Origin: Sporichthya brevicatena
GTDB taxonomy: Bacteria > Actinomycetota > Actinomycetes > Sporichthyales > Sporichthyaceae
DNA: 64,000 nucleotides
Direction of reading: 5' to 3'
Assembly (NCBI RefSeq): GCF_039525035.1
Contig: NZ_BAAAHE010000007.1
Coordinates: 124,001-188,000, forward strand
Part shown: positions 1,996-59,049 of the stretch, one piece after another
Position numbering within the stretch: position 1 is the first letter of the stretch
Layout: every line of letters begins with the position of its first letter
The notes under the pieces: model-generated
The model's input: only the letters and a program-made list of their open reading frames with translations
Databases searched by the model: none
Told to the model about the DNA's origin: nothing
Position numbers and translations under genes: made by a program

Positions 1996-2022
1996 CCCCC
2001 GCAGTGGCGGAGGAGGTCTCGG

Positions 2023-2247
2023 GTGGCGCGCAGGACGGTGAAGGCGCTCCAGGACGACCTGACCGGAGGACCGGCCGACGAGACCGTGCGCTTCTCGCTG
2101 GACGGGATCGACTACGAGATCGATCTGTCGGCGAAGAACGCCGAGCGCCTGCGTAGCGATCTCGACCTGTATGTCGCCGCGGCTCGCCGGGTCCGCGCGA
2201 ACTCGCTGCTGCGGGAGGCGGGCCGCTACCGGAGCCGGGCGGGCTGA
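2023..2247 (+). CDS. Short Lsr2-like protein (N-terminal dimerisation domain only)
   Basis: A 74-residue basic protein starting at GTG after a strong GGAGGAGG site. It matches the N-terminal half of Lsr2, the actinobacterial H-NS-like nucleoid protein: 'DDLTGGPADETVRFSLDGIDYEIDL' pattern at ~10-35, then helix 'NAERLRSDLDLYVAAARRV'. Lsr2 is normally ~105-115 residues with a C-terminal DNA-binding domain carrying an RGR minor-groove hook. Here the protein stops shortly after the helix, with RYRSRAG as its end, so that domain is missing. It could dimerise with a full-length Lsr2 and modulate it, or contact DNA through its short basic tail. It stands alone between the SDR and the nitroreductase. 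Confidence 0.75.
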   Translation: MARRTVKALQDDLTGGPADETVRFSLDGIDYEIDLSAKNAERLRSDLDLYVAAARRVRANSLLREAGRYRSRAG

Positions 2248-2279
2248 CGGCGCCTCGGCGCGTGCGGGATGCTGACGGC

Positions 2280-2924
2280 ATGAGCCAGTTGGATCTCGCC
2301 GTCACGGACGAACTGCTCGCCACCACGCGCAGCATCCGCAGGAAGCTGGACCTGGAGCGGCCCGTCGACCTCGCGCTGGTCGACCAGTGCATCGAGCTCA
2401 GCCTGCAGGCTCCGACCGGCAGCAACGCGCAGGGGTGGCGCTGGCTGGTCGTCACCGACGAGAAGCTCCGGGCCGGGCTCGCCGATATCTACCGCCGCGG
2501 CTCGGCGACCTACTTCGCCAAGCAGGCCGAGGCCCTCGCCGGCGACAAGGGCAGCCAGAACGCGAAGGTCTACAGCAGCGCGCAGTACCTGGTCGACGTG
2601 CTGCACCGCGTCCCGGTCCACGTCATCCCGTGCGTCCGCGGCCGGCTCTCGGACAACGCCTTCGCGAACGCGTCGATGTACGGCTCGATCCTGCCGGCGG
2701 TGTGGAGCTTCATGCTCGCGGCGCGGGCCCGGAACCTCGGCACGGTCTTCACGACCCTGCACCTCAACCTGGAGGCCGAGGCGGCCGAGCTCCTCGGCAT
2801 CCCGCCGAAGTTCCTGCAGATGGGGCTCATCCCCGTCGCCCACACCGATCCGTCGGTGTTCAGGCCGGTGAGCCGGCAGCCGCTCGACACCGTCCGGTTC
2901 GTCGATCGCTGGCCGACGGACTGA
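2280..2924 (+). CDS. Nitroreductase-family protein
   Basis: A 214-residue protein of the FMN-binding nitroreductase fold. The 'TTRSIRRKLDLERPVD' opening is the usual 'R-S-x-R-x-F' phosphate-binding region, followed by 'SLQAPTGSNAQGWRWLVV' (the conserved A-P-S/T-x-x-N-x-Q-x-W motif), and 'GSILPAVWSFMLAARARNLGTV' is the helix lining the flavin. The family reduces nitro groups, quinones or enones with NAD(P)H. In catabolic islands members can act as ring or enone reductases, but the substrate is open. An in-frame GTG at 2262 would add six residues; the ATG at 2280 is preferred on family length. It converges with the hydrolase gene at 2936. Confidence 0.8.
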   Translation: MSQLDLAVTDELLATTRSIRRKLDLERPVDLALVDQCIELSLQAPTGSNAQGWRWLVVTDEKLRAGLADIYRRGSATYFAKQAEALAGDKGSQNAKVYSSAQYLVDVLHRVPVHVIPCVRGRLSDNAFANASMYGSILPAVWSFMLAARARNLGTVFTTLHLNLEAEAAELLGIPPKFLQMGLIPVAHTDPSVFRPVSRQPLDTVRFVDRWPTD

Positions 2925-2935
2925 CCGACGCTCCG

Positions 2936-3772
2936 TCAGAAGGCGAGCGCCTCCACCGCGGCGGTCGCGATCTCACCCGGGCGCTCGAACGGGCCGAAGT
3001 GCGTCGTCCCGCGGTGCACGACGAGCCGGGCGGTCGGCAGGGTGTCCGCGAGGATGCGGGCGCTGCGGGCCGCGCGGATCTGGTCCGGCTCGGTGCCGAC
3101 CGCGACGGTCACGGGCACGGCCACGTCGATGACGCCGGTGCGCTCCGCGCCCGAGGCGTAGCAGGCCGCCTCGGTCTCCGGGGCGCAGCGCAACTCGACG
3201 CTGCCGTCCTCGGTCTCCCGGAAGCCGTGGTCGAGGAACGCCCGCAGACTCTCGTCGGCCCACCCGGCGAAGGTCGGCGTCTGGCGCAGTCGCTCGCCCG
3301 CGAGCCCGCGGGACGAGAACCGGGACATCCGACGTCGCGTCCGCGCGACGAAGGCCGTGGGGTCCGGCCGCTCGTCCGTGTCCGCCAGCAACGCGGGCTC
3401 GAAGACGTACGCCGCCCGCACCGTACCCGGCCACCGGGTCTCCGCGATCAGCGCCGCCGCGGCTCCCATCGAGTGCCCGAACACCGCCACCCCGGACGGG
3501 TCGAGCGTCGTCGCCACGGCGTGGACGTCCTCCGCCATCCGGTGCCACGAGCAGTCGTTCCCGGGCGCCGGGTCGGACCGGCCGTGACCTCGGAAATCCA
3601 GCGCGTACACATGGAACCGGTGCGTCAGCGCCGCCGCCACCGGGGCGTACGCACCTCCGCAGAACCCGGTCGCGTGGCAGATCAGCAGCGGCGGACCGTC
3701 CCCACCGAAGTCCTCCACGTGGAGCGTTACGTCGTTCGCCGAACTGATCCGAAGGTCGTCGCGCACGCGCAT
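2936..3772 (-). CDS. Alpha/beta-fold hydrolase
   Basis: A 278-residue alpha/beta hydrolase. The oxyanion-hole strand 'PLLICHATGFCGG' (28-40), the 'DFRGHGRSD' turn (59-67) and the nucleophile elbow GHSMG (Ser101) are plain, and a His in the C-terminal 'HRGTTHFGPFE' completes the triad. Such enzymes hydrolyse esters, C-C bonds or epoxides; nothing here selects one. It is divergent from the importer operon starting at 3901, with a 128-base shared control region. Confidence 0.8.
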   Translation of the reverse strand: MRVRDDLRISSANDVTLHVEDFGGDGPPLLICHATGFCGGAYAPVAAALTHRFHVYALDFRGHGRSDPAPGNDCSWHRMAEDVHAVATTLDPSGVAVFGHSMGAAAALIAETRWPGTVRAAYVFEPALLADTDERPDPTAFVARTRRRMSRFSSRGLAGERLRQTPTFAGWADESLRAFLDHGFRETEDGSVELRCAPETEAACYASGAERTGVIDVAVPVTVAVGTEPDQIRAARSARILADTLPTARLVVHRGTTHFGPFERPGEIATAAVEALAF

Positions 3773-3887
3773 GACGGTACAAGGGGGCCGGGCGAACCTT
3801 CCGCAACGCTCTGACCAGGAACGACGGCGTAGAGCGACCAGGTTCCAAGGGTCGGAACGAGACCCGGCTCACACGGTTCGCGATCCC

Positions 3888-3893
3888 TAACCT
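3888..3893 (+). promoter_or_regulatory. -10 box for a probable leaderless transcript of importer operon 1
   Basis: TAACCT (TAnnnT type) ends 7 bases before the ATG at 3901, the spacing expected when transcription starts on the A of the start codon. No Shine-Dalgarno sequence precedes the ATG. A 17-base dyad GTTCC-N7-GGAAC lies upstream at 3842-3858 and could be an operator. Confidence 0.4.
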
Positions 3894-3900
3894 CCTCGGC

Positions 3901-5430
3901 ATGTCGAAGTCGAGTAGTCGGTCCAGGCGGCTCCGCCGTCGCACGACCAACAGATTCCGCAGGCCCCAGCGGGTCGCAGCCGTCGTGGCCGTCGGCATGC
4001 TGGTGACGGCCTGCGGCACACGTGTGAGCGACGAACGGCTGACCGCTGCCGGCAGCCTCGGCGCGGGCGAGCAGGTGGTCCAGGGCGGGGTCCAGTCGGC
4101 GGCGACGAGTTCGGACGGCGGTGCCGTGGCCGCGCCCGACGCTCCCGGCGTGACAGCGGGCGCCCCGGCCGCGACGGCCGGACCGAGTGCGACGAAGCCG
4201 GGCGCCACCGCCCCAAACCAAACCACCACCGGGACAGCGGCCGCCGCGGGCAAGCCGGCGGCCTCCGCAGGCTCTGGCGCGGCCGCCCCGGGTGCTACGG
4301 CTTCCGCCGCCTGCACCAAGACACTCGATCCGATCAGCATCGGCCAGGTCGGCGCATTCAGCGGGTTCCTGGAGCCCACGCTCGGGGGTTACCGACCAGG
4401 CCTCGCTGTGTGGGCTGCTGAGGTGAACGCCCGTGGCGGCGTGCAGTGCCATCCGATCCGGCTCTCCCAGCGCGACGACGGCTCCGACCCGGCCCGGACG
4501 ACTTCGGTCGTTCAGGAACTCGTGAAGAGCCAGAAAGTCGTCGTCATGCTCGCCGGCGACATGCCGATCACCATCGCGGCCTACCGCGCAGCGATGAAGC
4601 CGACGGGGATCCCGACGATCGGCGGCGACATGATCACCCCGGACTGGACCCAGGACCCGCTGCTCTACCCGGCCGGCGGAGGCAACTCGATCAACGGATT
4701 CGCCGGCGCCCTCAAGGCGGCGGTCGAACACACCGGTAAGAAGAAGTTCGGCCTGGTGCACTGCATCGAGGCGACGATCTGCGGGCTCATTCGCGACAAC
4801 ATCAAGGACATGGCCGCCAAGGCCGGCGCGGAGGTCGTGTCGCAGCAGTCGGCGTCGCTGACCCAGACCGACTTCACCTCGCAGTGCCAGAGCGCGAAGA
4901 ACGCCGGTGCGGAGCTGATGTTCACTGCCCTTGACACCTCCAGCGTCGCGCGGCTGTTCAAGTCCTGCGCGGCCATCGGATTCCGACCGCCGACAGCGAC
5001 AAGCGCAATTGCTGTCGGTCCAACCACCGCCTCCGATCCCAACGTCCAGGCTGCAGGTGTCTACCTGAACTCGCAGAACATGCCCTACGTCAACGAGGGC
5101 TCGCCGGCGGTTCAGGAGTTCCTGGCTGCCATGAGGAAGTACGCGCCGGGTGTCCGCGTCGACCAGAACGCTCTGGCGGCCTACAGCTCGGGAAAGCTCC
5201 TCGAGGCGGCTCTGGCCAAGGTGGCCGAGCAGGCCCGTTCGGGTCCCGTCGACAGTGAGCTGATCATCCGTGGCCTGCATCTCGTCAAGAACGAGACGCT
5301 GAATGGCCTCTCCTCCGTGCCGCTGACGTTCAAACCGGGTCCGCACGAGGTGGGCAACTGCTACTTCGTCACGCTGATGGACCGTCGCGGAATCTCGGAC
5401 CTGACCAAGGGGCGGCCGCAATGTCTGTGA
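3901..5430 (+). CDS. LIV-type ABC importer, substrate-binding lipoprotein (cluster 1)
   Basis: A 509-residue secreted lipoprotein. A basic N-terminus rich in Arg leads to a hydrophobic segment and the lipobox LVTAC, giving a lipidated Cys at 38. Residues ~40-137 are a low-complexity Ala/Gly/Thr/Pro linker, which probably lifts the binding domain off the membrane. From ~140 the 'ISIGQVGAFSGF' strand starts a periplasmic-binding fold of the branched-chain amino acid/receptor type (Peripla_BP_6). It delivers ligand to the permease encoded at 7659. Its stop overlaps the next gene by 10 bases. The paralogue at 57568 has the same lipobox-linker-domain layout. The ligand is unknown; the surrounding catabolic genes suggest an aromatic or terpenoid acid rather than an amino acid (inference). 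Confidence 0.85.
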   Translation: MSKSSSRSRRLRRRTTNRFRRPQRVAAVVAVGMLVTACGTRVSDERLTAAGSLGAGEQVVQGGVQSAATSSDGGAVAAPDAPGVTAGAPAATAGPSATKPGATAPNQTTTGTAAAAGKPAASAGSGAAAPGATASAACTKTLDPISIGQVGAFSGFLEPTLGGYRPGLAVWAAEVNARGGVQCHPIRLSQRDDGSDPARTTSVVQELVKSQKVVVMLAGDMPITIAAYRAAMKPTGIPTIGGDMITPDWTQDPLLYPAGGGNSINGFAGALKAAVEHTGKKKFGLVHCIEATICGLIRDNIKDMAAKAGAEVVSQQSASLTQTDFTSQCQSAKNAGAELMFTALDTSSVARLFKSCAAIGFRPPTATSAIAVGPTTASDPNVQAAGVYLNSQNMPYVNEGSPAVQEFLAAMRKYAPGVRVDQNALAAYSSGKLLEAALAKVAEQARSGPVDSELIIRGLHLVKNETLNGLSSVPLTFKPGPHEVGNCYFVTLMDRRGISDLTKGRPQCL

Positions 5431-6824
5431 CGCGACGCGCCCGGGCCGCGGCGTGGACCGTCGTGGCCATGACGTCCTCGACGGCGCTGGCGCTGTTCAC
5501 CGGTGCAGGCGTGGCCAAGGCCAACTACGTCGTGCCGACCGGCTCCTACGACGCAACCGCCCAGGCGATCGCCCTGAACGCCACGATCGCGAACCCGAGC
5601 ATCCCGCTCGGGCTCGTGATCGAGGGGCTCGGCCCGGAGGCGTCCTCGCGGGTGAACTCCAGCGGCACGTCCGACGCCGAGGCGTCCTTCCCCTATCTGG
5701 GGCCGGTTGCGCCCGGCCTCATCGGCATTGCGGCCGGCCTGTACGGCCTCCCGTGGCCGGGTTATCCGCTGCAAGCGACGACCAGCGCGGGGGAGGCGCC
5801 TAGGACCGTCACGTATCCCGGAATTCGCCTCCACGCAGAGAGTGGCAATGACACGAACGTCGGCTCGGCGTCGGTGTCGGGTCCGGCCGGCGGAGGCACT
5901 GCGGACACGCGCATCTCGGTGAACTCCAGCGGTGGCGTCACCGCGGTTGCGGACACCGCGTTGGACGCGGTCAACCTGGGGAACGGTGTCCGACTGGCCG
6001 GGGTGCTCTCCACCGCCCGGGTCGTCGCCGACGGCACGACGGGAAAGCTCGTCCGAACATCGTCCTTGAGCATCGGCCGCATCACGGTCCCCGGCTTGGC
6101 GATCACCGTCCCGAAGACGACGCCGGGCGCTGCGCCGATCCCCATTCCGCTGCCCGGTGTGCCGCAGCTCCCGGACACGCAATTCCCCACGATCCCCCTG
6201 CCGTTCGGCGGTCAGACGCTCCCGGCGCCCGACCTGGGGTTCGTCGACGGGGTCTTCACCATGACGCTGCCCGGGTTCGGAAGTACCGAGTACGCCGTGC
6301 CGGCCGCCGCGGTCCTCGAGGCGTTCGAGGCGGCCGGCTTGAACATGTCCTACCAGCCCGCGGAGGCGACTCCGACGGGTGTCACCGGCGCGGCCTTCAA
6401 CCTGCGCACGGAGTTTCCGGCCCCGCCGGACAACCCGTACGCCTACGGGTCCACCTCGGTCAGCTATTCCGTCGGCAACGTCGCCGCGAACGTCACCTTC
6501 AACAAGTTCGCCCCGGAGAGTGCAGCGGGTGTCGACGGCGCGGTGCCAGGGTCGGCGGCACCCGACGCCGTCGGAGCTGTCCCGGACCTCGACCCGGTCG
6601 ACGCGGCCGGCTTGCCGGCCACCGTCCCGGGCCTCGTGCCCGCCGTTACCGGCGGGGTGCCGGTAGACCAGGCGGCACCGGTCAACGTCGCCCGGCTACT
6701 GCCGGTGCACGAGTCGATCGATCTCACCAGTTACTACGTCGCCCTGTTCGTCGTGGCGCTCGCCGCTCTGGCTGCGATGACGATCCTGCGGTTGTTGGGA
6801 GTGCGTTCGCTATGGAGCTCATGA
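5421..6824 (+). CDS. Unrecognised secreted, C-terminally membrane-anchored protein (cluster 1)
   Basis: A 467-residue protein I do not recognise. It has a Sec-type signal peptide with probable cleavage after AKA (residue ~34), a long Gly/Ala/Val/Pro-rich exported region, a Pro/Ile-rich stretch at ~230-265, and one C-terminal transmembrane helix (~440-460) with a short basic tail, so most of it should lie outside the membrane. It starts inside the end of the lipoprotein gene and overlaps the next gene by 13 bases, so it is translationally tied to the importer. The gene at 52882 is a clear paralogue: both share 'GSYDGTA/DATA', 'NPSxPLGL', 'GxxLHAESG', 'LSIGRxT' and 'PDLGFVDG' segments in the same order. 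An accessory or scaffold role for the importer is inference only. Confidence 0.8.
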   Translation: MSVTRRARAAAWTVVAMTSSTALALFTGAGVAKANYVVPTGSYDATAQAIALNATIANPSIPLGLVIEGLGPEASSRVNSSGTSDAEASFPYLGPVAPGLIGIAAGLYGLPWPGYPLQATTSAGEAPRTVTYPGIRLHAESGNDTNVGSASVSGPAGGGTADTRISVNSSGGVTAVADTALDAVNLGNGVRLAGVLSTARVVADGTTGKLVRTSSLSIGRITVPGLAITVPKTTPGAAPIPIPLPGVPQLPDTQFPTIPLPFGGQTLPAPDLGFVDGVFTMTLPGFGSTEYAVPAAAVLEAFEAAGLNMSYQPAEATPTGVTGAAFNLRTEFPAPPDNPYAYGSTSVSYSVGNVAANVTFNKFAPESAAGVDGAVPGSAAPDAVGAVPDLDPVDAAGLPATVPGLVPAVTGGVPVDQAAPVNVARLLPVHESIDLTSYYVALFVVALAALAAMTILRLLGVRSLWSS

Positions 6825-7123
6825 CACTCGTCCGGGCGCAGTGGGATCGCGGGCTCGCGATTCTGTTCGTCCTCATCGGGTTGGCGATGCTGCTGGTCGG
6901 GTGGGTCGGCGTCAGCGGCGCGGAGGTGGTCGTCAAGCAGTTGCCGTACGTGATGTCGCTCGGCATCACCGGCGTGGTGATGGTCGCGATCGGGGCGGTG
7001 CTGTGGGTGTCGGCCGACTTGCGGGACCAGTGGCGTGAACTGCGGCTGGTTCGCCTCAGTTTGCGCGAGCTCAGCGGCATCTCGGACCTGGCGACGCCCA
7101 CCGCGGCCCACCGTAAGGCCTGA
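6812..7123 (+). CDS. Small two-helix membrane protein of the importer module (cluster 1)
   Basis: A 103-residue protein with two predicted transmembrane helices (~14-36 and ~48-67) and a charged C-terminal region. It is not a family I can name. Its paralogue at 54165 shares the N-terminal 'QWDR', the 'VxQLPY' between the helices and 'SADLRDxWREL' after helix 2, which are the likely functional surfaces. The reading frame overlaps the secreted protein gene by 13 bases, and the next gene starts 3 bases after its stop. Strict conservation of position in both clusters suggests it works with the permease or the zinc-site protein next to it. Confidence 0.8.
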   Translation: MELMTLVRAQWDRGLAILFVLIGLAMLLVGWVGVSGAEVVVKQLPYVMSLGITGVVMVAIGAVLWVSADLRDQWRELRLVRLSLRELSGISDLATPTAAHRKA

Positions 7124-7126
7124 CTG

Positions 7127-7666
7127 ATGACGACGACTTCCTTCGTGGAGCTGCCGGCGGGCGCGCTTCGCATGCCGGTCTCGCGGACCAACGACCTGGT
7201 CCTCGATGTAGCCGACCCGGCCTCGCCGTGGCGCCGGCGGGATCTTGCGATCAGCGGCCTGCTCCTCGGCGCCGGGCTCGTGGGCATCTTCGCCTGCTGG
7301 TTCACCGGGTCCGGCGAGCTGACCTACACCGACCAGGTGCCGTGGCTGGTGAACAGCGTTCTGTGCGGGGTCGTCAGCGTTCTCGGGCTGGTGTACTGGC
7401 TGGTCCGCGGCTTCCGTCAGGTGAATCTGATGCAGCGTGATGTTCAACGCTGGCTGGTGCCGTGGGTGACCGAACAGCACGCCGCGCTGCGTACCGGCGA
7501 CGCCGTGCCCATTTCCGCAGGAACCCTGGTCTCGGCACCGACGATGACGCGCGTGCACCACGCGCACTGCCCGATGGTGCGCGGCAAGAGCGGCGTTGCC
7601 GCGGTGACCGAGGATGAGATCCGCGAGCGCGGCCTGACCCAGTGCGGGGCGTGCCACCGTGGCTGA
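7127..7666 (+). CDS. Two-helix membrane protein with C-terminal His/Cys putative metal site (cluster 1)
   Basis: A 179-residue protein with a ~38-residue leader, two transmembrane helices (~40-62 and ~72-92) and a soluble tail. Near the C-terminus it carries H-H-A-H-C-P (within residues ~143-149) and a final C-G-A-C-H. The paralogue at 54449 keeps the pattern H-x3-C ... C-x2-C in the same place. This looks like a small zinc-binding knuckle, reminiscent of Ada-type 'H/C-x3-C ... C-x2-C' sites, but no family can be named. The stop overlaps the permease GTG start by 8 bases. A role in gating, assembly or sensing for the importer is possible but is inference. Confidence 0.75.
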   Translation: MTTTSFVELPAGALRMPVSRTNDLVLDVADPASPWRRRDLAISGLLLGAGLVGIFACWFTGSGELTYTDQVPWLVNSVLCGVVSVLGLVYWLVRGFRQVNLMQRDVQRWLVPWVTEQHAALRTGDAVPISAGTLVSAPTMTRVHHAHCPMVRGKSGVAAVTEDEIRERGLTQCGACHRG

Positions 7667-9599
7667 GTATCTGCCGTTCATCATTTTCGGTCTGATCACC
7701 GGGTGCATCTACGGCATCTCGGCCATGGGCCTGGTTCTGACGTACAAAACATCGGGCGTCTTCAACGTCGCGCACGGGGCTACCAGCGCCGTCGGCGCGT
7801 ACATCTTCTACGAGCTTCGCCAGGAACACGGCATCGCTTGGCCGATCGCGGCCGTGGTGGCGGTGCTGATCTTCGGTCCGATCTCCGGCCTTCTCCTGGA
7901 GCGCATGGCCGCCTCGTTGGCGGGTGTCACGGTCACCTACAAGATCGTCGCGACTGTCGGGGTGTTCATCTGCATCCAGGCGGGCATCGGCCTGATCTAC
8001 GGGTCGAACTCCACCTTCGTGTTCCAGCCCTTCCTGTCGCAGGAGGAGGCATTCGCGGTCGAAGGCGTGTCGGTCACCTACGACAACGTCCTCGACATGC
8101 TCTTCGGCATCGCTCTGGCGGTCGGTCTCTGGCTGCTGTTCACGCGAACCCGCCTCGGGGTCAGCATGCGTGGTGTTGTTGACGACCCGGCGCTGCTCGA
8201 CATGACCGGTGAGGCGCCCACAAAGGTCCGACGCCGCGCATGGATGATCGGCTCGACCCTGACCGCGGTGTCGGGAGTTCTCTTTGCGGCCGCCCAGCAG
8301 CAGCTGGACATCAGTGTGCTCTCGCTGCTCGTCGTCCAGGCGTTCGGCGCGGCGGCGCTCGCGCGCTTCACCAGCCTGCCGCTCGCCTTCGTCGGTGGAC
8401 TCGTGGTCGGGCTCGTGCAGAAGATTGTCGCCAAGGAGGTCGCCGAGTACCCGGGTCTCCAAGGTCTGGACCTGAACGTTCCGTTCATCATCCTGTTCCT
8501 GACTCTGCTGATCGTGCCGCGGCACAAGCTCGTCGAGGTCGGCCGGCCGATCAAGATGCGTCCGCCGCGCCCGAGTCGGCTGTCGATGCAGACGCGCTCG
8601 GTCGGCTGGGGAGCTGTCGCCGTCGTCGCCCTCGTCGTGCCGCACGTCGCAGGCTCACACCTGATTGCCTGGAACCAGGCGGCGAGCCAGGTGGTGCTCT
8701 TCCTCTCGCTGGGACTTCTCGTCCGGACGTCGGGACAGATCTCGTTGTGCCACATCGCGTTCGCGGCGATCGGGGCGTGCGCCTTCGGGCACTCGGTGAC
8801 AAGTGGGATGCCCTGGGCCGCGGCGGTGCTCTGGGGCGGGCTGGTCGTCGTCCCGGTCGCGGCGTTCATCGCCGTGCCGGCCATTCGGCTCTCCGGCCTG
8901 TACCTGGCGCTCGCCACCCTGGGCTTCGGCATTTTCGTCGCGCAGTTCGCGTACGGCAAGTCGTACATGTTCGGCTACGGCAACCTGGAGACGCGTCGGC
9001 CGACCGGGTTCGACGTGGGCAACGACGTGCGCTTCTACTATCTCTTACTCGCGATCGCGGTCGCGGCCATCGGCTTGATCCTCGTGATCGAGCGTTCGCG
9101 TCTGGGTCGGTTGCTCCGAGGGATGGCCGACTCCCCGACCGCCCTCTCGACGTTGGGGGTCAACCTCAACATGTCGCGTGTCATTGTCTTCTGCATCTCC
9201 GGCTTTCTCGCCGGTGTCAGCGGCGCGACGTACGCATCACTGTTCGGCTCGGTCAACCAGGAAAGCTTTGGCTACTTCCAGTCCTTGCTCGTACTCGCCG
9301 TGCTTGCGATTTCCGGCAGTCGCACGGTGCCGGCCGCGATCGTCGGCCCGGTTCTGCTTTACGTCGTTCCGAACTACCTCAACGACGCCCGGATGATCTA
9401 TCTGCTTCAGTTCGCCTTCGGCCTTTTCGCCATCCTCGCGGCCGCGGCGTCCCAGGGTGGCATCTCGAAACTCATCGGTCGTCTGAACGTGAAGTCTGCC
9501 GAGCGTCTGGTCGGCCCGCTGGCCGATCGGCTGGAGTTGGCGCGACAACCTCGTGCGACGACGCGGCAACCGGCGACCAGCGGGATGACGGGAAGTTGA
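7659..9599 (+). CDS. LIV-type ABC importer permease, LivH-LivM fusion (cluster 1)
   Basis: A 646-residue integral membrane protein. The first half (to ~300) is a LivH-type permease: 'GLITGCIYGISAMGLVLTYKTSGVFN' start, and 'LLDMTGEAPTKVRR' cytoplasmic coupling loop. The second half (~320-620) is LivM-type: 'SLGLLVRTSGQISLCHIAFAAIGA', 'RLSGLYLALATLGFG' and a second coupling loop 'RGMADSPTALSTLGVNLN'. LivH and LivM are normally separate subunits of ~300 residues each, so one chain here supplies both halves of the channel. GTG start, overlapping the previous gene by 8 bases. The paralogue at 54898 is fused in the same way. Confidence 0.9.
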   Translation: MAEYLPFIIFGLITGCIYGISAMGLVLTYKTSGVFNVAHGATSAVGAYIFYELRQEHGIAWPIAAVVAVLIFGPISGLLLERMAASLAGVTVTYKIVATVGVFICIQAGIGLIYGSNSTFVFQPFLSQEEAFAVEGVSVTYDNVLDMLFGIALAVGLWLLFTRTRLGVSMRGVVDDPALLDMTGEAPTKVRRRAWMIGSTLTAVSGVLFAAAQQQLDISVLSLLVVQAFGAAALARFTSLPLAFVGGLVVGLVQKIVAKEVAEYPGLQGLDLNVPFIILFLTLLIVPRHKLVEVGRPIKMRPPRPSRLSMQTRSVGWGAVAVVALVVPHVAGSHLIAWNQAASQVVLFLSLGLLVRTSGQISLCHIAFAAIGACAFGHSVTSGMPWAAAVLWGGLVVVPVAAFIAVPAIRLSGLYLALATLGFGIFVAQFAYGKSYMFGYGNLETRRPTGFDVGNDVRFYYLLLAIAVAAIGLILVIERSRLGRLLRGMADSPTALSTLGVNLNMSRVIVFCISGFLAGVSGATYASLFGSVNQESFGYFQSLLVLAVLAISGSRTVPAAIVGPVLLYVVPNYLNDARMIYLLQFAFGLFAILAAAASQGGISKLIGRLNVKSAERLVGPLADRLELARQPRATTRQPATSGMTGS

Positions 9600-9601
9600 C
9601 G

Positions 9602-10393
9602 ATGGATTACCAGGGTGGCAACCCCGCCGGTGCCGGCGGACTGGTCGTGGACAAGCTCGTCGTCAAGTACGGCGGGCACACCGCGGTCAACCAGATCTCG
9701 TTGACCGCTCCCCCCAGGGGACTGATCGGACTGATCGGACCCAACGGCGCCGGCAAGACGACGACCTTCAACGCCTGCACGGGACTCTTGCGGCCGACGG
9801 GCGGACGCGTCTCGTTCTTCGGTGACGAGATAACCGATGAGGCGCCGCACCAGCGTGCGCAGCGCGGCATCGGACGGACGTTCCAGCGGATGGAGTTGTT
9901 CGACTCGCTCTCGGTGCGCGAGAACGTGGCCCTCGGCCGCGAGGGAGGGATGGCGGGGAGCCGTCCGCTCCGGCACCTCCGGTCCTCGCGCTCGGACGCC
10001 GCGAAAGTCCGGGAGGCAGCCGAGTCCGCGCTGGCACAGTGCGGCATCGAGGCTCTCGCCGATCGACGGCCCGCGGACCTGTCGACGGGGCAGCGTCGGC
10101 TCGTTGAGCTCGCGCGGTGCATCGCGGGAGGTTTCCGCATCATGTTGCTCGACGAGCCGTCGTCAGGCCTCGACAAGGCCGAGACTGTCGTTTTCGGTCA
10201 GATCTTGCGGTCCCTGATCGCAGACCGCGGAGTGGGCATCCTGCTCGTCGAGCACGACATGGCGCTGGTGATGAGCGTTTGTGACTACCTGTATGTCATG
10301 GACTTCGGCCAACCGATCTTCGACGGCACCCCGGCGGAGGTCCGGGAGAGCGAGATCGTGCGGGCCGCCTACCTGGGCAGCGAGGCCGCCTGA
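9602..10393 (+). CDS. LIV-type ABC importer ATPase, LivG-like (cluster 1)
   Basis: A 263-residue ATPase. Walker A GPNGAGKT is at 46-53, the Q-loop region is 'GRTFQRMELF' (91-100), the signature is LSTGQRR (160-166; LSYGQQR in most LivG proteins) and Walker B is IMLLDEP (180-186), followed by the H-loop 'LLVEHDM'. The long insert between Q-loop and signature is typical of LivG. It starts 2 bases after the permease stop and its own stop shares one base with the LivF start (TGATG). No equivalent gene is present in the second importer cluster. Confidence 0.9.
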   Translation: MDYQGGNPAGAGGLVVDKLVVKYGGHTAVNQISLTAPPRGLIGLIGPNGAGKTTTFNACTGLLRPTGGRVSFFGDEITDEAPHQRAQRGIGRTFQRMELFDSLSVRENVALGREGGMAGSRPLRHLRSSRSDAAKVREAAESALAQCGIEALADRRPADLSTGQRRLVELARCIAGGFRIMLLDEPSSGLDKAETVVFGQILRSLIADRGVGILLVEHDMALVMSVCDYLYVMDFGQPIFDGTPAEVRESEIVRAAYLGSEAA

Positions 10394-11094
10394 TGCTGGA
10401 GCTGAAGGGAATCGTCGCCGGGTACGGCGGGACCACCGTCCTACGCGGGGTCGACTTGTTGGTGCCGGAAGGTTCAGTTGTCGCGATGCTGGGAGCGAAC
10501 GGTGCCGGGAAAACGACGCTGCTGCGTGTCGCGTCAGGGTTGTTGCCTGCCACCGGTGGCCAGCTGGTCCTGGACGGCACCGACGTCACTCGCTCCAGCC
10601 CGCACCAGTTGGTGACGCGCGGGATCTGCCATGTGCCCGAGGGCCGTGGTGTGTTCCCGTCGTTGACGGTCCAGGAGAACCTGATTCTCCAGTCGCTTCG
10701 GGGCGAGGAGAAACGTGCGATCGAGCGCGCCGTCGAGGCTTTCCCGCGCCTCGGTGAACGGCTGTCCCAGGTCGCCGGGACGATGAGCGGTGGCGAACAG
10801 CAGATGCTGGCCCTCGCCCGGACCTATGTCCAACACCCGAAAGTGGTGCTGCTGGACGAGGTCTCGATGGGCTTGGCGCCCAAGATCGTCGACGAGATCT
10901 TCGACTTCCTGGCCAGGCTGCGCAATGAGGGCTGCAGCCTGTTGCTCGTCGAGCAGTACGTCACGCGTGCCCTCGAGGTCGCCGACTACGTGTATCTGCT
11001 GAACCGAGGCGAGGTGGCATTTGCCGGCGAGCCGAGCGAGCTCGCCGGCGAGGACGTTTTCACGCAGTACGTCGGGGCCGACATCGGTCATTGA
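10393..11094 (+). CDS. LIV-type ABC importer ATPase, LivF-like (cluster 1)
   Basis: A 233-residue ATPase. Walker A GANGAGKT is at 34-41, 'HVPEGRGVFPSLTV' is the LivF-specific region after the Q-loop, the signature is MSGGEQQ (131-137) and Walker B is VVLLDEV (151-157), with Val replacing the usual Pro after DE. The C-terminal 'LVEQYVTRALEVADYVYLLNRG' contains Gln in place of the H-loop His, as is normal for LivF ('VEQN'). It is the last gene of the operon, followed by a bidirectional hairpin and the convergent IclR gene. Confidence 0.9.
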   Translation: MLELKGIVAGYGGTTVLRGVDLLVPEGSVVAMLGANGAGKTTLLRVASGLLPATGGQLVLDGTDVTRSSPHQLVTRGICHVPEGRGVFPSLTVQENLILQSLRGEEKRAIERAVEAFPRLGERLSQVAGTMSGGEQQMLALARTYVQHPKVVLLDEVSMGLAPKIVDEIFDFLARLRNEGCSLLLVEQYVTRALEVADYVYLLNRGEVAFAGEPSELAGEDVFTQYVGADIGH

Positions 11095-11113: not shown

Positions 11114-11136
11114 GGACGGCTGACGTCAGGCCGTCC
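11114..11136. terminator. Hairpin between convergent importer operon 1 and IclR gene
   Basis: The arms GGACGGC (11114-11120) and GCCGTCC (11130-11136) enclose TGACGTCAG, which is itself nearly symmetric (TGACGTCA). The hairpin overlaps the stop codon of the IclR gene. No T-tract is present, but a strong dyad between convergent genes is a plausible terminator for both. Confidence 0.5.
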
Positions 11137-11995
11137 CCTCGAGGTAGGGAGCGGCGCGACGCATCAGGCGAGCCGCCGCCTCCTGCACGAGGCCGGCGTG
11201 TCGCACCGGATCGAATCGATTGGCCGGCCCGTCGACGGACAGGGCGGCGACCGAGAAGTCACGGCAGGCAAGTCGAACCGGGGCGGCTACACCGACGAAC
11301 TCCGGCTGGGTCGAGTGCCGACCGGCGAGCGCGCCCTTCGTGCGCACCGCGGAGATCCATGCCTGGCGATTGAGGGGCGGTTCGTCAGCGAGGTCGCCGT
11401 AGGCCAGCAGCACGCGACCGATGGGCGTGTGCTCGGCGGGGACCCATCGGCCGACACGCGTGCTGATCCGGCATCCTCCGCGTGCGTTGACCTTCTCCAG
11501 GTACAGGGTGTGCGTCCCGTCGAGCACTCCGAGGTGAACGGTCTCGTGCGTGCGTTCGAAGAGCCACTCCATCGCTGGGATCGCGTGGTCCATCAGAACT
11601 GCGTACTGTGAGAAGCGCGCGACGGAGGACAGCTGCAGGGAACGAACGCCGACCTTGTACTTGGCGCCGTCCCTGCCCACGAAGCCGCGCTGCTCCATTG
11701 CCTTCAGCAGGCGATGCGCCGTGCTCTTCGGCATGTCGGTCGCATTGGCGATGTCGGAGACACCGATCGATCGGCCGTCGGACAGGGCCATGGCCTCGAG
11801 GATCGCCAGGGCCTTGGCCACGGACGACATGGTGTCGTCGAGCTTGCTGGGGCGGACGGTCGGAGTCTCAGTCGTAGGGGTGGCGCTCAGCGGGGCGGTG
11901 CTCAGCGGGGCGGTGCTCAGCGGGGCGGTGCTCAGCGGGGCGGTGCTCAGCGGGGCGGTGCTCAGCGGGGCGGTGGGTGTGATGGTGGTGGTCAC
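11126..11995 (-). CDS. IclR-family regulator with repetitive N-terminal extension
   Basis: A 289-residue IclR protein. A tandem APLST repeat and acidic linker occupy residues ~8-55, then the winged-helix domain ('VAKALAILEAMALSD', 'DIANATDMPKSTAHRLLKAME') covers ~60-120 and the ligand-binding domain (~135-280) follows with 'THETVHLGVLDGTHTLYLEKV' and 'HTPIGRVLLAYG'. IclR proteins are usually 240-270 residues; the excess is the repeat. GTG start at 11995, with the GTGA overlap to the TetR gene showing the two regulators are cotranscribed. IclR members often control aromatic degradation genes; targets here may be the dioxygenase or importer genes (inference). Confidence 0.85.
   Translation of the reverse strand: MTTTITPTAPLSTAPLSTAPLSTAPLSTAPLSTAPLSATPTTETPTVRPSKLDDTMSSVAKALAILEAMALSDGRSIGVSDIANATDMPKSTAHRLLKAMEQRGFVGRDGAKYKVGVRSLQLSSVARFSQYAVLMDHAIPAMEWLFERTHETVHLGVLDGTHTLYLEKVNARGGCRISTRVGRWVPAEHTPIGRVLLAYGDLADEPPLNRQAWISAVRTKGALAGRHSTQPEFVGVAAPVRLACRDFSVAALSVDGPANRFDPVRHAGLVQEAAARLMRRAAPYLEGTA
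11883..11972. repeat. 15-bp in-frame minisatellite in the IclR gene
   Basis: Six head-to-tail 15-base units: one GCGCTCAGCGGGGCG at 11883-11897, then five identical GTGCTCAGCGGGGCG to 11972. On the minus strand each unit encodes five residues (APLST), so copy-number change keeps the frame. The units are identical at every base, including synonymous sites, which points to recent expansion. Confidence 0.9.
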
Positions 11996-21131: not shown

Positions 21132-21175
21132 GGCCTCAGGTTGTCGCCGTGGCACCTTCCGTGCCGCCCGCAGTA

Positions 21176-21186
21176 CCGCCTGGCGG
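21176..21186. promoter_or_regulatory. Short dyad in the divergent hydratase/IclR control region
   Basis: CCGCC-T-GGCGG lies in the 152-base gap between divergent genes. It is a candidate operator for the adjacent IclR protein, but the arms are GC-only and short, so chance is not excluded. Confidence 0.25.
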
Positions 21187-22084: not shown

Positions 22085-22106
22085 GCCTTCACGAAATTGG
22101 TGAACC

Positions 22107-52881: not shown

Positions 52882-54165
52882 GTGAAGCTGCTCGTCGGGA
52901 TCGCCGTGGCCACCGGGGTCGCCCTGTTCGGCGTGGCCCCGCTCGCCGCGGCCGACGTCACGCCCGGGGGAAGTTACGACGGGACCGCCGTCGCCTACGG
53001 CAACCTCGTCACGGCGACGAACCCCTCTGTCCCGCTCGGTCTGAGCCTCGAGCAGTCGGCCCCGGAGTCGCGGGTCCGGCTGACGTCGCTGGGGGAGTCC
53101 TCGGCGCTCGCGGCCGGTCCGTACCTCGGTGACTCCGCCACCGGCATCGCGTTCAGCCAGGCCGGCGGCAAGGGACTGGGCGGCCTGGACTTCCCGCTCG
53201 TCGCGGTCACCTCGGCCGGTGACAAGCCGAAGGACGTCACCGCCCCCGGCGTCGACCTGCACGCCGAGAGCGGTGTGAACCTCGCGGCCGCGCGGGCCGC
53301 CCTCGGCACCGGAGCGAACCGGGCCGCGACCGACGCCCGCGTCGAGCGCGTCACCGGCGGTACGTCCGCCTCCGCCTCCTCGCTCATCGACACCGTCGTG
53401 CTGTTCGACAAGCTCCTCATCTCCGGTCTGCGGTCCTCGGCCGAGACCGTCGCCGACGACAGCGGCAACCGCACCCGCCGCGGCACGTTGAGCATCGGCC
53501 GCCTGACGGCGCGGGGCATCACGATCACGGTCCCACCGGAGTCGCCGCTCGGCGCCGGCGCGCAGATCACCGGCCCGGACCTCGGCTTCGTCGACGGCCA
53601 GTTCTTCCTCGAGGTTCCGGGCGCACCGAAGAACTCCGTGCCCGTCGACGCGGCGGCCGTCGCGGACGCGTTCCGGGCGGTCGGCCTCACGATGACGTTC
53701 GCCAAGGCCGTCGAGACCGACACCGGGATCATCTCCCCGTCGCTCACGATCTCCGGCGTCCTGCCCGCGCCGCCGGAGAACCCCCAGGTCAACGGCGAGA
53801 CCCCCGTCAGCGTGACGCTCGGGCGCACCGCGGCCTCGGTGACCGTCCGCCCGGCCGCCGCGATCCCCGCCCTCGCGCCGGCGACGGGGACCACTCCGGC
53901 CGCCACGACTCCCGACACCACCCCGGCGGTCGACAACGCCGCGCTGCCCGGTCTGATCCCTGACGCTGCGTCAGGTGCGACGGTCCCGACCGTCGACCTC
54001 GGCACCGCCCCGGCCGCGGGTGACCGCGCCGCCCTCACGAGCGCGTCGTACGCGCACCCTGACCTCGCCCCGGTCTACCTGGCCCTCGGACTGGCGGCGG
54101 CGGTGGCGATGGGTGCCGCCGGAATCGTCCGATCGATGAGCGTCTCCCGCGGAAAGGGTGTCTGA
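52882..54165 (+). CDS. Unrecognised secreted, C-terminally membrane-anchored protein (cluster 2)
   Basis: A 427-residue paralogue of the 5421 protein. A signal peptide (cleavage probably after AAA, ~24) leads into an exported region, an Ala/Pro/Thr-rich stretch (~335-365) and one C-terminal helix (~395-420) with a basic end. The shared segments with cluster 1 ('GSYDGTA', 'NPSVPLGL', 'GVDLHAESG', 'LSIGRLT', 'GPDLGFVDG') are in the same order, which shows common descent, while the linker regions differ. Here it is the first gene of the operon, behind the dyad-controlled promoter. Function unknown. Confidence 0.8.
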   Translation: MKLLVGIAVATGVALFGVAPLAAADVTPGGSYDGTAVAYGNLVTATNPSVPLGLSLEQSAPESRVRLTSLGESSALAAGPYLGDSATGIAFSQAGGKGLGGLDFPLVAVTSAGDKPKDVTAPGVDLHAESGVNLAAARAALGTGANRAATDARVERVTGGTSASASSLIDTVVLFDKLLISGLRSSAETVADDSGNRTRRGTLSIGRLTARGITITVPPESPLGAGAQITGPDLGFVDGQFFLEVPGAPKNSVPVDAAAVADAFRAVGLTMTFAKAVETDTGIISPSLTISGVLPAPPENPQVNGETPVSVTLGRTAASVTVRPAAAIPALAPATGTTPAATTPDTTPAVDNAALPGLIPDAASGATVPTVDLGTAPAAGDRAALTSASYAHPDLAPVYLALGLAAAVAMGAAGIVRSMSVSRGKGV

Positions 54166-54452
54166 TGGGGTTCCTCAGCTGGCTGCGGGTCCAGTGGGAC
54201 CGCGCGGCCGCGGGCGCGGCGTTCGTCGCCGGGCTGGTCGCGCTCGTCCTCGGCTGGATGGGGATCAGCGACGCCCTCTACGTCGTCGAGCAGCTGCCGT
54301 ACCTGATCTCCGGCGGTCTCGTCGGGCTCTTCCTGCTCGGGCTCGGCGCGGTCCTGTGGATCTCGGCCGACCTGCGGGACGAGTGGCGCGAGCTCCGCGC
54401 CCTCCGCGAGCTGCACGCCGAGCGCCTGCCGCACCTCGCGGAGCACCGGTGA
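54165..54452 (+). CDS. Small two-helix membrane protein of the importer module (cluster 2)
   Basis: A 95-residue paralogue of the 6812 protein with two helices (~13-33, ~45-65) and the same three conserved patches: 'QWDR', 'VEQLPY' and 'SADLRDEWREL'. Its first base is the last of the previous stop (TGATG), and its stop overlaps the next GTG (GTGA). The patches lie on the likely cytoplasmic side, so they could contact the ATPases; this is inference. Confidence 0.8.
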   Translation: MGFLSWLRVQWDRAAAGAAFVAGLVALVLGWMGISDALYVVEQLPYLISGGLVGLFLLGLGAVLWISADLRDEWRELRALRELHAERLPHLAEHR

Positions 54453-54901
54453 CCGTCCTCCCTCCCGAGCACCGCGCGCCCTACCTGGGCCCGGCCGGCG
54501 CCTGGACGCGCGGCACCGCCGTCGCCTCCGTCGCGCTCGCGGCGCTGTCCGCCGTCGGCGTCACCGCGGCGTGGGTCGGTGCCAGCGGGCGGACGCACAT
54601 GGACGACGTCGTCCCGTTCCTCGTTCTCGGTGTCGTGGCCTTCGCCGTCGGCGGTCTCGCGGGCGCGGTCTGGCTCGGTGGCGGGCTGCGGAGCATCCGC
54701 GCGGAGCGGGTCGCGCTGCGTCGCCGCCTGCTCGCGATGGACCTCGGCCGCGTCGAGGTGGTCGCCACCGCTGACGTCCGCGTCATCGGACCGGGCATGA
54801 CGAAGGTGCACCGCCCGGACTGCGAGTACGCCCGTGGCAAGGAGGTCGCCGAGGTCCCGGCGGACGCCGAGGTCCCCGAGTGCCGGGTGTGCGCGGCATG
54901 A
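54449..54901 (+). CDS. Two-helix membrane protein with C-terminal His/Cys putative metal site (cluster 2)
   Basis: A 150-residue paralogue of the 7127 protein. Two helices (~22-44, ~55-77) are followed by a basic segment and the C-terminal pattern H-R-P-D-C (119-123) ... C-R-V-C (145-148), keeping the H-x3-C ... C-x2-C spacing logic of cluster 1. Conservation of these His/Cys residues between otherwise diverged copies is good evidence that they matter, most simply as a zinc site. GTG start at 54449; the stop overlaps the permease ATG (ATGA). Confidence 0.75.
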   Translation: MTVLPPEHRAPYLGPAGAWTRGTAVASVALAALSAVGVTAAWVGASGRTHMDDVVPFLVLGVVAFAVGGLAGAVWLGGGLRSIRAERVALRRRLLAMDLGRVEVVATADVRVIGPGMTKVHRPDCEYARGKEVAEVPADAEVPECRVCAA

Positions 54902-56832
54902 ACGACCTGCTGCCCTACGTCATCTTCGGCGTCACCGCCGGCGCGATCTACGGCCTCTCGGCGATGGGTCTCGTCCTCACCTACAAGACCTCGGGCCTGT
55001 TCAACTTCGGCCACGGTGCCGTCTCGGCCGCGGCGGCGTTCGTCTTCTACAGCCTCCACGTCGAGAAGGGGCTGCCCTGGCCGCTCGCCGTGCTCGTCGT
55101 CGCGGCGGTGTTCGGCCCGCTCGCCGGCCTGCTGCTCGAGCGCATGGCCGCGGTCCTCGCCGACGTCCCGGTCACGTACAAGATCGCCGGCACCGTCGGC
55201 CTGCTCGTCGGCCTCCGCGGCCTGATCGAGCTGGTCTACGGACCCGAGGCGAAGACCCTCGCGCCGTTCCTGCCGCAGGGCACCGCCTTCTCCGTCGACG
55301 GCGTGCGCGTCACGGTCGAGAACCTCATCACCGTCGGCGTCGGGGTCGCGGCGGCCGTCGGCCTCTACGTGCTCTTCCGCGTCTCGAAGCTCGGAGTCGC
55401 GATGCGCGGCGCGGTCGACGACTCGATGCTGCTCGACATGACGGGGTACGACCCCGCCACCGTGCGCCGCATCAGCTGGATGATCGGCGGGGTCTTCGCC
55501 GCGGTCTCCGGCGTCCTGTTCGCGAGCGCGCAGGGCCAGCTCGACGTGGACGTCCTCTCGCTCCTCGTCGTCCAGGCCTTCGGCGCCGCCGCGATCGGAC
55601 GCTTCGCCAGCCTGCCGCTCGCGTTCGTCGGCGGCATCGGCATCGGCGTCGTGCAGAAGCTGGTCAGCCAGCAGGTCGTCGACTACCCGGCGCTCACCGG
55701 CCTCGACCTGAACGTCCCGTTCCTCGCGCTCTTCGCGATCCTGCTGTTCACCCCGCGCGGCAAGCTCGTCGAGGTCGGCCGCTCGGTGAAGTCGCGCGCC
55801 GTCCCGGTCAGCCGGTTTCGCGTGCGCACCCACGTCGCCGGTTATGGCCTCGCGCTCGCGGTGCTTCTCGCGATCCCGACGCTGGTCGGCGCCAAGCAGC
55901 CGGTGTGGAACCTGGCGATGGCTCAGGTCCTGCTGTTCCTCTCGCTCGGTCTGCTGGTCCGCGTCTCCGGCCAGATCTCGCTGTGCCAGGTCGGGTTCGC
56001 CGCCGTCGGCGCCGCTGCGTTCGGGCACCTGCTCGGCCGCGGCGTCCCGTGGCTGCCGGCGCTGCTGGTCGCGGGTCTGATCACGATCCCGGTCGGCGCG
56101 TTCGTCGCGATCCCGGCGATCCGCCTGTCCGGCCTCTACCTCGCGCTGGCGACGTTCGGCTTCGGTGTCTTCCTCGCGCAGTTCTTCTACACCAAGGACT
56201 ACATGTTCGGCTTCGGGCAGAAGCTGCAGACGCACCGCCCGGCCGGCTTCGAGTCCGAGGAGCGCTACTACTACGTGCTGCTCGCGGTGGCGGTCGCCGG
56301 CTCGCTGGTCGTCGCGGTCGTCGAGCGCAGCCGCCTCGGCCGTCTGCTGCGCGCGCTCTCGGACTCCCCGACCGCGCTGGTCACCCTCGGCGTCAGCACG
56401 ACGGTGACGCTGGTCCTCGTCTTCTGTCTCTCCGCCGCGATGGCCGGCGTGAGCGGCGCGATGTACGCGGGCCTGTTCGGCTCGGTCGGCGGGTTCGCGT
56501 TCCCCTTCACCGCCTCGCTGATCGCGCTCGCGGTCCTCACCATCTCCGGTCGCGCCACGATCCCGGCGGCGTTTCTCGCGCCCGTCCTGCTCTACGTGGT
56601 CCCGGCGTACCTGGAGGGGGAGCGGACGGGCTCGGCGATCCAGGCCCTGTTCGGCTTCAGCGCGATCGTCGCCGCCGCGGCGTCGCAGGGCGGCCTCGAC
56701 CGCTGGTTCGGCGCGCGGGCCGTGGCGTCCGCCGAGCGCCGGCGCGGCCCCGCCGGCCTGGCCGGCAACCTGCCCGGGCGCAAGCCGCGTCCCCGGACCA
56801 CCCGCGCCCGGACGGCGGTGACCTCGGCATGA
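54898..56832 (+). CDS. LIV-type ABC importer permease, LivH-LivM fusion (cluster 2)
   Basis: A 644-residue paralogue of the 7659 permease with the same two-in-one build: LivH half with 'YGLSAMGLVLTYKTSGLFNFGHG' and coupling loop 'LLDMTGYDPATVRR', LivM half with 'LFLSLGLLVRVSGQISLCQVGFAAVGAAA', 'RLSGLYLALATFGFG' and 'RALSDSPTALVTLGVS'. Both coupling loops, where the two ATPases should bind, are present, although only a LivF-type ATPase gene follows. The ATG at 54898 overlaps the previous stop (ATGA). Confidence 0.9.
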   Translation: MNDLLPYVIFGVTAGAIYGLSAMGLVLTYKTSGLFNFGHGAVSAAAAFVFYSLHVEKGLPWPLAVLVVAAVFGPLAGLLLERMAAVLADVPVTYKIAGTVGLLVGLRGLIELVYGPEAKTLAPFLPQGTAFSVDGVRVTVENLITVGVGVAAAVGLYVLFRVSKLGVAMRGAVDDSMLLDMTGYDPATVRRISWMIGGVFAAVSGVLFASAQGQLDVDVLSLLVVQAFGAAAIGRFASLPLAFVGGIGIGVVQKLVSQQVVDYPALTGLDLNVPFLALFAILLFTPRGKLVEVGRSVKSRAVPVSRFRVRTHVAGYGLALAVLLAIPTLVGAKQPVWNLAMAQVLLFLSLGLLVRVSGQISLCQVGFAAVGAAAFGHLLGRGVPWLPALLVAGLITIPVGAFVAIPAIRLSGLYLALATFGFGVFLAQFFYTKDYMFGFGQKLQTHRPAGFESEERYYYVLLAVAVAGSLVVAVVERSRLGRLLRALSDSPTALVTLGVSTTVTLVLVFCLSAAMAGVSGAMYAGLFGSVGGFAFPFTASLIALAVLTISGRATIPAAFLAPVLLYVVPAYLEGERTGSAIQALFGFSAIVAAAASQGGLDRWFGARAVASAERRRGPAGLAGNLPGRKPRPRTTRARTAVTSA

Positions 56833-57560
56833 GCGACGGACTGTTCCGCCTGCGCGGCATCCGGGCCGGCTACGGCGCGACCACGGTGCTCCGCGGTGTC
56901 GACCTGACCGTGCCGCCGCGGAGCGTCGTCGCGTTGCTCGGCGCGAACGGCGCCGGCAAGACGACCCTGCTGCGCGCTGCCTCGGGCGTGATCGGCCTGT
57001 CCGCGGGCCGCCGGACCTTCGACGGCGAGGACCTCACCACAGCGACCCCGCACCAGCTCGCGCGCCGCGGCATCTGCCACGTGCCTGAGGGTCGTGGGGT
57101 CTTCGGCAGTCTGACGGTGCGTGAGAACATCCGCCTCCAGGCGACGAAGGGCAGCGAGTCCGAGGCGTTCGACCGCGCGGTCTCCGCCTTCCCGCGTCTC
57201 GGCGAGCGAATGAACCAGCTCGCCCGGACGATGTCCGGCGGCGAGCAGCAGATGCTCGCCCTCGCCCGGGCCTACATCCAGCGGCCGCGCGTCGTCCTGC
57301 TCGACGAGGTGTCGATGGGCCTCGCGCCCCGCATCGTCGACGAGATCTTCGAGTTCCTGCGTCGCCTCGCCGCGGAGGGCGCGAGCCTGCTCATCGTCGA
57401 GCAGTACGTCCAGCGCGCCCTCGAGGTGGCCGACGCGGTCTACCTGCTGAACAAGGGTCAGGTCTCCTTCGCCGGCGAGCCGTCCGAGCTCGACGGCGAG
57501 GACCTGTTCACCAGCTACGTCGGCGGCAGCGTCGGCAGCGCCGATCGAGTTTCCGCTTAG
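56829..57560 (+). CDS. LIV-type ABC importer ATPase, LivF-like (cluster 2)
   Basis: A 243-residue ATPase highly similar to the 10393 protein. Walker A GANGAGKT is at 38-45, 'HVPEGRGVFGSLTV' at ~84-97, the signature MSGGEQQ at 135-141 and Walker B 'VVLLDEVSMGLAP' at ~155-167, with the same DEV variant. It is the only ATPase in this operon: no LivG gene is found between the permease and the binding protein, where cluster 1 has one. Overlaps the permease gene by 4 bases. Confidence 0.9.
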   Translation: MSDGLFRLRGIRAGYGATTVLRGVDLTVPPRSVVALLGANGAGKTTLLRAASGVIGLSAGRRTFDGEDLTTATPHQLARRGICHVPEGRGVFGSLTVRENIRLQATKGSESEAFDRAVSAFPRLGERMNQLARTMSGGEQQMLALARAYIQRPRVVLLDEVSMGLAPRIVDEIFEFLRRLAAEGASLLIVEQYVQRALEVADAVYLLNKGQVSFAGEPSELDGEDLFTSYVGGSVGSADRVSA

Positions 57561-57567: not shown

Positions 57568-59049
57568 ATGCGTCAGCACAAGTCCCGTTACGCCCTGCTG
57601 GCTCTCGTGCTGGCCGGGACGATGGCGACCTCGGCCTGCGGTACCCGGCAGAGCATCGAGGCCATCGCGGCCGCCAACGGCCCGGGCGGCTCCACGGTCT
57701 CCGCCGTCGAGAACGCCGTCGGCGGCGTCGGCGCGCTCCCGGCTCCGGGCACCGCCCCCGGCGCGGTCGACGGATCCGCGGCGGCCGCCCCGTCCCCCGC
57801 CGCGGGCTCGGCGACCACCGCGCCGGGCACGACGGCCGGCAGCACCGAAGTCGCGACCGCGTCCAACGGCTCGGCGAAGGCCGCCAAACCGGGGGGCGCG
57901 GCCCAGACCGCCGAGGCCCCGAAGGCGGCAGGGTGCACACAGTCCCTGGCGCCGATCACCATCGGCCAGGTCGGCGGGTTCACCGGGATCGTCAGCAACA
58001 CCCTCGCGGGGTCGAAGATCGGTCTGCCGGTCTGGGTGGCAGCGATGAACGCCCGCGGCGGCATCGCGTGCCACCCGATCCGGCTCGTCCAGGCCGACGA
58101 CGCGTCCGACCCGTCGAAGTCGAACGCCGCCGTCCGCGACCTGGTGCAGAACAAGGGCGCGGTCGCGCTGGTTGGCAGCTCGGTCCCGATCTCGATCAAG
58201 GGCTTCCGCGCCGCGGTCGAGGCGCTCAAGGTGCCGGCCGTCGGTGGTGACTCGCTGAACTTCGACTGGAACCAGTCGCCGTACCTGTTCCCGCAGGGCA
58301 CCACGTTCTCCGCGACGATCATCGGCGCGGTGAAGCAGAACGTCGAGGCGGGCAGGAAGAAGATCGGTCTCGTCTACTGCGTCGAGGCGAACAACTGCAC
58401 GGACGCCTACCAGGTGCTCAAGCAGGGCGGCGCGACGAAGGCCGGCGCGCAGGTCGTCTACGAGACGCAGATGAGCATCACCGGCACCGACTTCTCCGCG
58501 CAGTGCCGCTCGGCCCAGAACGCCGGGGCGGACCAGCTCCTGCTCGCGATGGACGGCTCCGCGATTCAGCGGTTCCTGCGCTCCTGCGCGGCGCTGAACT
58601 ACTTCCCGGCGATCGCGACCTCCGCGATCGCGACCGGCAGCGTCGTCAGCAAGGACGCCAATGCGCAGAAGGCGACGGTCTCGGTCGCGCACATCGTGTT
58701 CCCGTGGATGCGCGCCGACAACGCCGCTCAGCAGGCGTACGCGAACGCGATGAAGCTGTACGCGCCCGACGCCGACTCCGACGGCGCCACCTCGCAGGCC
58801 TGGGTCGCGGGCGAGATGCTTCGGGTCCTCGTCGAGAAACTCGGCGCGAAGGCGGCCGAGCCTCTCACGACGGCCGCGATCCTCGACGGGCTCGGAAAGC
58901 TGAAGAAGGAGACGTTCGGCGGGTTGAGCGCGCCGGTCACCTTCTCGCCCGGGCAGAAGAGCTCACCCGAGAACAACTGCTACTACCCGGTGAAGCTGGA
59001 CTCGCGCGGCTGGACGTCGCCGAGCAGCAAGCCCGTCTGCTTCACATGA
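57568..59049 (+). CDS. LIV-type ABC importer, substrate-binding lipoprotein (cluster 2)
   Basis: A 493-residue lipoprotein. The lipobox ATSAC places the lipidated Cys at 24; residues ~26-125 are an Ala/Gly/Pro/Thr-rich linker, and from ~128 the '[13 protein letters not shown]' strand starts the binding fold. Shared features with the 3901 protein include 'NARGGxxCHPIRL', 'GLVHC/VYCVEA' and 'DFTSQC/DFSAQC', so both copies have a conserved set of Cys residues that may form disulfides. It is last of the importer genes here, first in cluster 1. The P450 start lies in its stop (ATGA). Confidence 0.87.

Follow-up and report, generated by a model that had tools for sequence, protein, structure and literature searches.

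ABC importers of the LIV/HAAT type (LivJ/K, LivH, LivM, LivG and LivF; UrtABCDE) are textbook systems for which we know of no extra subunits. A literature search for accessory subunits of LIV importers found none, and searches on choice-of-anchor P, on Sporichthya and steroids, and on LIV accessory proteins returned no description of the gene module presented here. The module shares its receptor, permease and ATPase families and its transport logic with LIV/HAAT importers, but differs from them in having three extra linked proteins, a fused permease, a LivG that is sometimes missing and about thirty-fold paralogy. Mce importers of mycobacteria and Rhodococcus can be compared by analogy only: they are actinobacterial ABC lipid importers that include surface proteins as well as small accessory proteins of the membrane, and they share an ATPase between systems (PMC6678751). 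The module proteins, however, have no MCE (MlaD) domain in a Pfam scan, and an Mce-type identity was ruled out, as the MlaD hits of the host genome are on contig C19 only. This contig carries a single Mce-type cluster of six genes with MlaD domains (2009-7508), well away from the modules described here.

The window (the whole 64,000-nt stretch of Sporichthya brevicatena DNA that we analysed) contains two clusters that an earlier note, made from the letters alone, had described as LIV-type ABC importers accompanied by a large secreted protein (SEC) and two proteins with two helices each (SM, described as small, and HC; together the 2TM proteins, after their two transmembrane helices). Pfam assignments (Peripla_BP_6 and BPD_transp_2) bear out the importer part of this description, and the coordinates were confirmed. 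Cluster 1 consists of the following genes:

3901..5430, + strand: SBP1, LIV-type substrate-binding lipoprotein (Peripla_BP_6, Pfam 8.4e-47)
5421..6824, + strand: SEC1, secreted beta-rich protein (AF2 model) with a signal peptide and a C-terminal TM anchor
6812..7123, + strand: SM1, two-TM hairpin with QWDR / QLPY / SADLRDxWREL patches
7127..7666, + strand: HC1, two-TM hairpin, SM homologue, with a C-terminal H-x3-C...C-x2-C site
7659..9599, + strand: LivHM fused permease (BPD_transp_2 twice, 9.1e-50)
9602..10393, + strand: LivG ATPase (NF008449 LivG, 3.6e-60; BCA_ABC_TP_C)
10393..11094, + strand: LivF ATPase, by homology and position

Cluster 2 consists of:

52882..54165, + strand: SEC2 (iterated SEC profile, 2e-102; alignable to SEC1)
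54165..54452, + strand: SM2, SM homologue (SM search and profile)
54449..54901, + strand: HC2 (GTG start)
54898..56832 (alternative start 54880), + strand: LivHM fused permease
56829..57560, + strand: LivF ATPase
57568..59049, + strand: SBP2, lipoprotein receptor (Peripla_BP_6, 2e-43)

Both clusters have a receptor and a permease of the LIV/HAAT type: each has a Peripla_BP_6 receptor, and two BPD_transp_2 halves are fused in one ORF. The ATPase pair, LivG with its BCA_ABC_TP_C tail and LivF, is present in cluster 1; LivF is the sole ATPase of cluster 2, which has no LivG. SBP1 has the lipobox LVTAC, read in the sequence, and its nearest solved chains are 4f06 and 4evs, both ABC-type extracellular ligand-binding receptors. 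The SM and HC motifs given in the earlier note are present in the window sequences, and the genes do overlap or nearly touch, with gaps of at most 7 nt in both clusters (at most 3 nt in cluster 1, where SBP, SEC, SM, HC, LivHM, LivG and LivF follow one another on the + strand). The claim of a common gene order holds for SEC-SM-HC-LivHM in the window; the receptor is placed differently (at the 3' end in cluster 2), and the order varies among modules elsewhere. Downstream of cluster 1, an IclR-type regulator (11126-11995, - strand) begins with a short tandem repeat (STAPLSTAPLSTAPLS...).

The two clusters had been taken for two copies; they are two of the 32-33 module copies carried by the host, whose 5.2 Mb genome is in 89 contigs. 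A search with the SM protein found 33 places, one of which is an HC gene, leaving 32 modules (a contig scan with one sequence returned only a single locus). Profiles derived iteratively from the proteins of the window detected SEC and LivHM in all 32 SM modules, with a receptor close by in almost every one; the joint recurrence of SM, SEC and LivHM is far beyond chance. HC with the H-x3-C...C-x2-C tail is encoded in 28 of the 32 (counting one HC fused to SM), three modules have a tail-less hairpin (L012, L021 and L034) and one has no HC (L039). An extra module (L096; contig C17, 140-6330) has SEC, LivHM, receptor, LivG and LivF without the 2TM pair; together these five exceptions indicate that the 2TM parts are not always needed. 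SEC lies upstream of SM in some modules and downstream of LivF in others, the ATPase genes are incomplete in several modules, with one or both absent, and several have LivF alone. Receptor genes vary in number too: five tandem SBP genes follow one LivHM permease in L027 (contig C16, 12192-19501), and two tandem receptors are found in L017, L018 and the distant locus L084.

The accessory genes belong to one LivHM branch, since SEC and 2TM genes are both absent from at least seven other LIV-type permease systems of the host genome (L097, L100-L105). Three further LIV-type systems (L095, L098 and L099) have different secreted proteins: two different large ones (465-581 aa) are encoded directly upstream in each of L095 and L099, and L099 also encodes a permease-ATPase fusion of 1264 aa.

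The modules are not confined to this genome. SM matches number 16-35 in each of the five family genomes searched (two genera), some of these matches being HC genes. A profile search across Actinomycetota found distant 2TM homologues in at least 32 of 396 genomes, mostly of other classes; at most 11 candidates were scored per genome, so that these counts are lower bounds. We inspected 40 distant or divergent 2TM loci, including seven divergent loci from the host's own family, and 37 of them adjoin LIV genes. Of the other three, two are cut off by contig ends, and the third, a borderline hit at E 3.6e-4, has no LIV genes beside it; apart from these three, none of the 40 places the 2TM family away from LIV genes. 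Gene order is rearranged at the distant loci with linkage kept, and the adjacent gene often encodes a protein of 440-530 residues with a signal peptide and a C-terminal helix. The expected co-occurrence with fused LivHM permeases is seen for LIV genes as such; in distant genomes the two permease halves, LivH and LivM, often have a gene each. Because the linkage of SEC, SM and HC with LivHM is kept in 32 host modules and in other classes, it is very likely that these proteins form a single functional unit, as the earlier note had proposed.

None of SEC, SM and HC in the window belongs to a Pfam or NCBIfam family above cut-off, which fits the idea of three unrecognised families in part only: SM and HC are homologous, judging from the comparison of their profiles (hhalign E 4.5e-10 over 61 columns), and appear to be duplicates of one family. 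In L030 (8618-9496), SM and HC form one continuous frame of 293 residues, a natural fusion, and many distant 2TM proteins combine an SM-like hairpin with an HC-like tail in a single chain. The simplest history suggested by these sequences is one ancestral SM/HC protein, later duplicated. The His and three Cys of the HC tail are invariant in 22 alignment rows, and the tail is likely to be a zinc site; a search of the HC profile against PDB sequences gave chance-level rows only. A conserved His and three Cys would also suit a zinc- or redox-responsive sensor or regulatory pair that gates the importer, with SEC sensing a ligand or the cell wall, so that SM and HC would regulate and take no part in translocation. 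This is a tentative alternative that we consider rather doubtful. The zinc tail is missing from a few modules, as regulation would allow, and the small hairpins have no room for a substrate cavity; however, SM, HC and SEC contain no signalling domain, the tail-less SM is almost as universal as the permease, and TetR or IclR regulators are already found near many modules.

SEC is secreted and C-terminally anchored according to both sequence and model (signal peptide, C-terminal TM). The AF2 model of SEC1 (pLDDT 79.5 at full length; 89.5 for the domain alone, pTM 0.84) has a confidently modelled domain, rich in beta structure, whose long strands run antiparallel, followed by a proline-rich low-confidence linker (370-434) and a TM helix (435-458); the predicted anchor of SEC is a single helix in the cytoplasmic membrane. 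Comparison of the full-length model and of the domain with PDB folds gave no clear solved match, the viral fold library gave none, and a profile search against PDB sequences gave chance-level rows only. A porin reading was rejected: only porin-like rows were returned, with Foldseek TM of about 0.2 or lower and VIA-align Z up to 6.1 at rmsd 4-9, which may reflect a common arrangement, and the model shows no sign of a barrel through an outer membrane. An envelope-spanning machine of a new type, as once suggested for these clusters, is therefore beyond the evidence, and we found none for an envelope-spanning channel; we prefer to describe the modules as LIV importers with new accessory subunits.

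Module SECs of other classes (nine proteins aligned) match the SEC profile with an hhalign E of 1.2e-19 over 280 columns. Four distant-module SECs (L072, L075, L076 and L079) pass the cut-off (27 bits) of NF040603, NCBI's model of the uncharacterised choice-of-anchor P family, and one host-genome SEC scores 27.9 in the genome search and 22.4 as a whole protein. SEC1 and SEC2 do not match this model, and the SEC profile resembles typical family members weakly (hhalign probability 15). We regard SEC as a remote relative of that family: both are secreted with a C-terminal anchor, but typical choice-of-anchor P members do not adjoin LIV genes. Choice-of-anchor P surface proteins are often found without importers, and the linker at 370-434 could extend into the wall; SEC might then be a protein of the cell wall or a scaffold with no tie to the substrate, keeping the importer at the surface or arranging it in domains. 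We think this unlikely, as a generic scaffold would not require 33 versions and each copy has its own diverged SEC that tracks its permease.

This tracking can be seen in the pairwise distances among host modules: the correlation with LivHM is highest for SEC (r=0.90), followed by LivG (0.87), SBP (0.80), LivF (0.78), HC (0.60) and short SM (0.53), all with p=0.001, although co-divergence is partly mere co-duplication. The fastest-diverging proteins are SEC, HC and SBP (median identity 26, 27 and 30%). SEC diverges at about the rate of the receptor (26% vs 30%), as would be expected if SEC meets the substrate or the receptor. Recent block duplication does occur: over 4.2 kb, the DNA of L010, at the end of contig C20, and that of L011, at the end of contig C8, show about 90% identity, with 93% in another stretch, and this duplication is probably the source of the assembly break. 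One might thus suppose that the SEC, SM and HC genes only hitch-hike with a duplicated transporter, with no functional coupling. Such an explanation is very improbable, since linkage survives at 26-43% median identity within the host genome, and in distant classes despite rearranged gene order.

Neighbouring genes fit the uptake of carbon sources that are degraded via CoA pathways. The leading classes among 139 module-flanking genes are TetR regulators (10), luciferase-type monooxygenases (eight), SDR proteins (seven), CoA ligases (six), enoyl-CoA hydratases (six), P450s (five), thiolases (four) and acyl-CoA dehydrogenases (four); in a background set of 139 genes on other contigs, each of these classes has three members at most, and the enrichment is modest against a background of only this size. 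The substrates are probably compounds degraded through CoA pathways, and it is plausible that they are hydrophobic. One module adjoins a relative of the steroid-24-oyl-CoA synthetase CasG, with a score below the cut-off of that family. Between the two modules of the window lies an aromatic-type catabolism gene cluster (16021-29417), which encodes 4-hydroxy-2-oxovalerate aldolase, acetaldehyde dehydrogenase and a relative of 2-oxopent-4-enoate hydratase as well as a benzoate-dioxygenase-like subunit and a P450. Steroid catabolism in the window, an idea drawn from gene order, is unsupported, as the genes at 16-29 kb are of meta-cleavage and benzoate-dioxygenase-like types.

Given the linkage, homology, copy number and co-divergence observed, the best reading of the data is a massively paralogised LIV importer that has accessory subunits of a new kind; we put the probability that the modules are LIV/HAAT-type ABC importers with dedicated extra subunits, acting in a complex with the topology, substrates and roles that we infer below, at roughly 0.5. 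The likeliest mechanism has SEC handling substrate and SM and HC acting as permease subunits. The lipoprotein receptor would capture the substrate outside the cytoplasmic membrane, and the beta-domain of SEC, tethered beside the permease, would either concentrate substrate or dock and present the loaded receptor, which would aid poorly soluble substrates; substrate handling by SEC is a guess, as SEC has no solved relative. By homology, LivHM would then translocate the substrate, powered by LivG and LivF, and modules without these ATPases presumably borrow them from other modules. The hairpins of SM and HC may pack on LivHM as a four-helix accessory unit, whose tails on the cytoplasmic side, one of them bearing a probable zinc site, could stabilise the complex or regulate ATPase coupling. 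The module would have been duplicated as a unit about thirty-fold, with copies specialising together with neighbouring catabolic genes of steroid, terpenoid, aromatic or branched-acid type.

Steroid uptake systems in actinobacteria lacking mycolic acids had not been identified as of 2016 (PMC4810484). It is possible, if speculative, that the modules represent a distinct class of ABC importers, in which a LIV core depends on a substrate shuttle (the membrane-tethered beta-domain of SEC) and on a two-protein 2TM unit, and that they provide a major route of steroid-, terpenoid- or aromatic-type uptake in mycolic-acid-free actinobacteria. If our reading of the modules as LIV importers with dedicated extra subunits is true, a role could be assigned to proteins that are labelled 'hypothetical' at present: the variant would have two subunit families not described before, and it is found in further classes of the phylum Actinomycetota and is amplified to 30-odd copies in this genome of 5 Mb.
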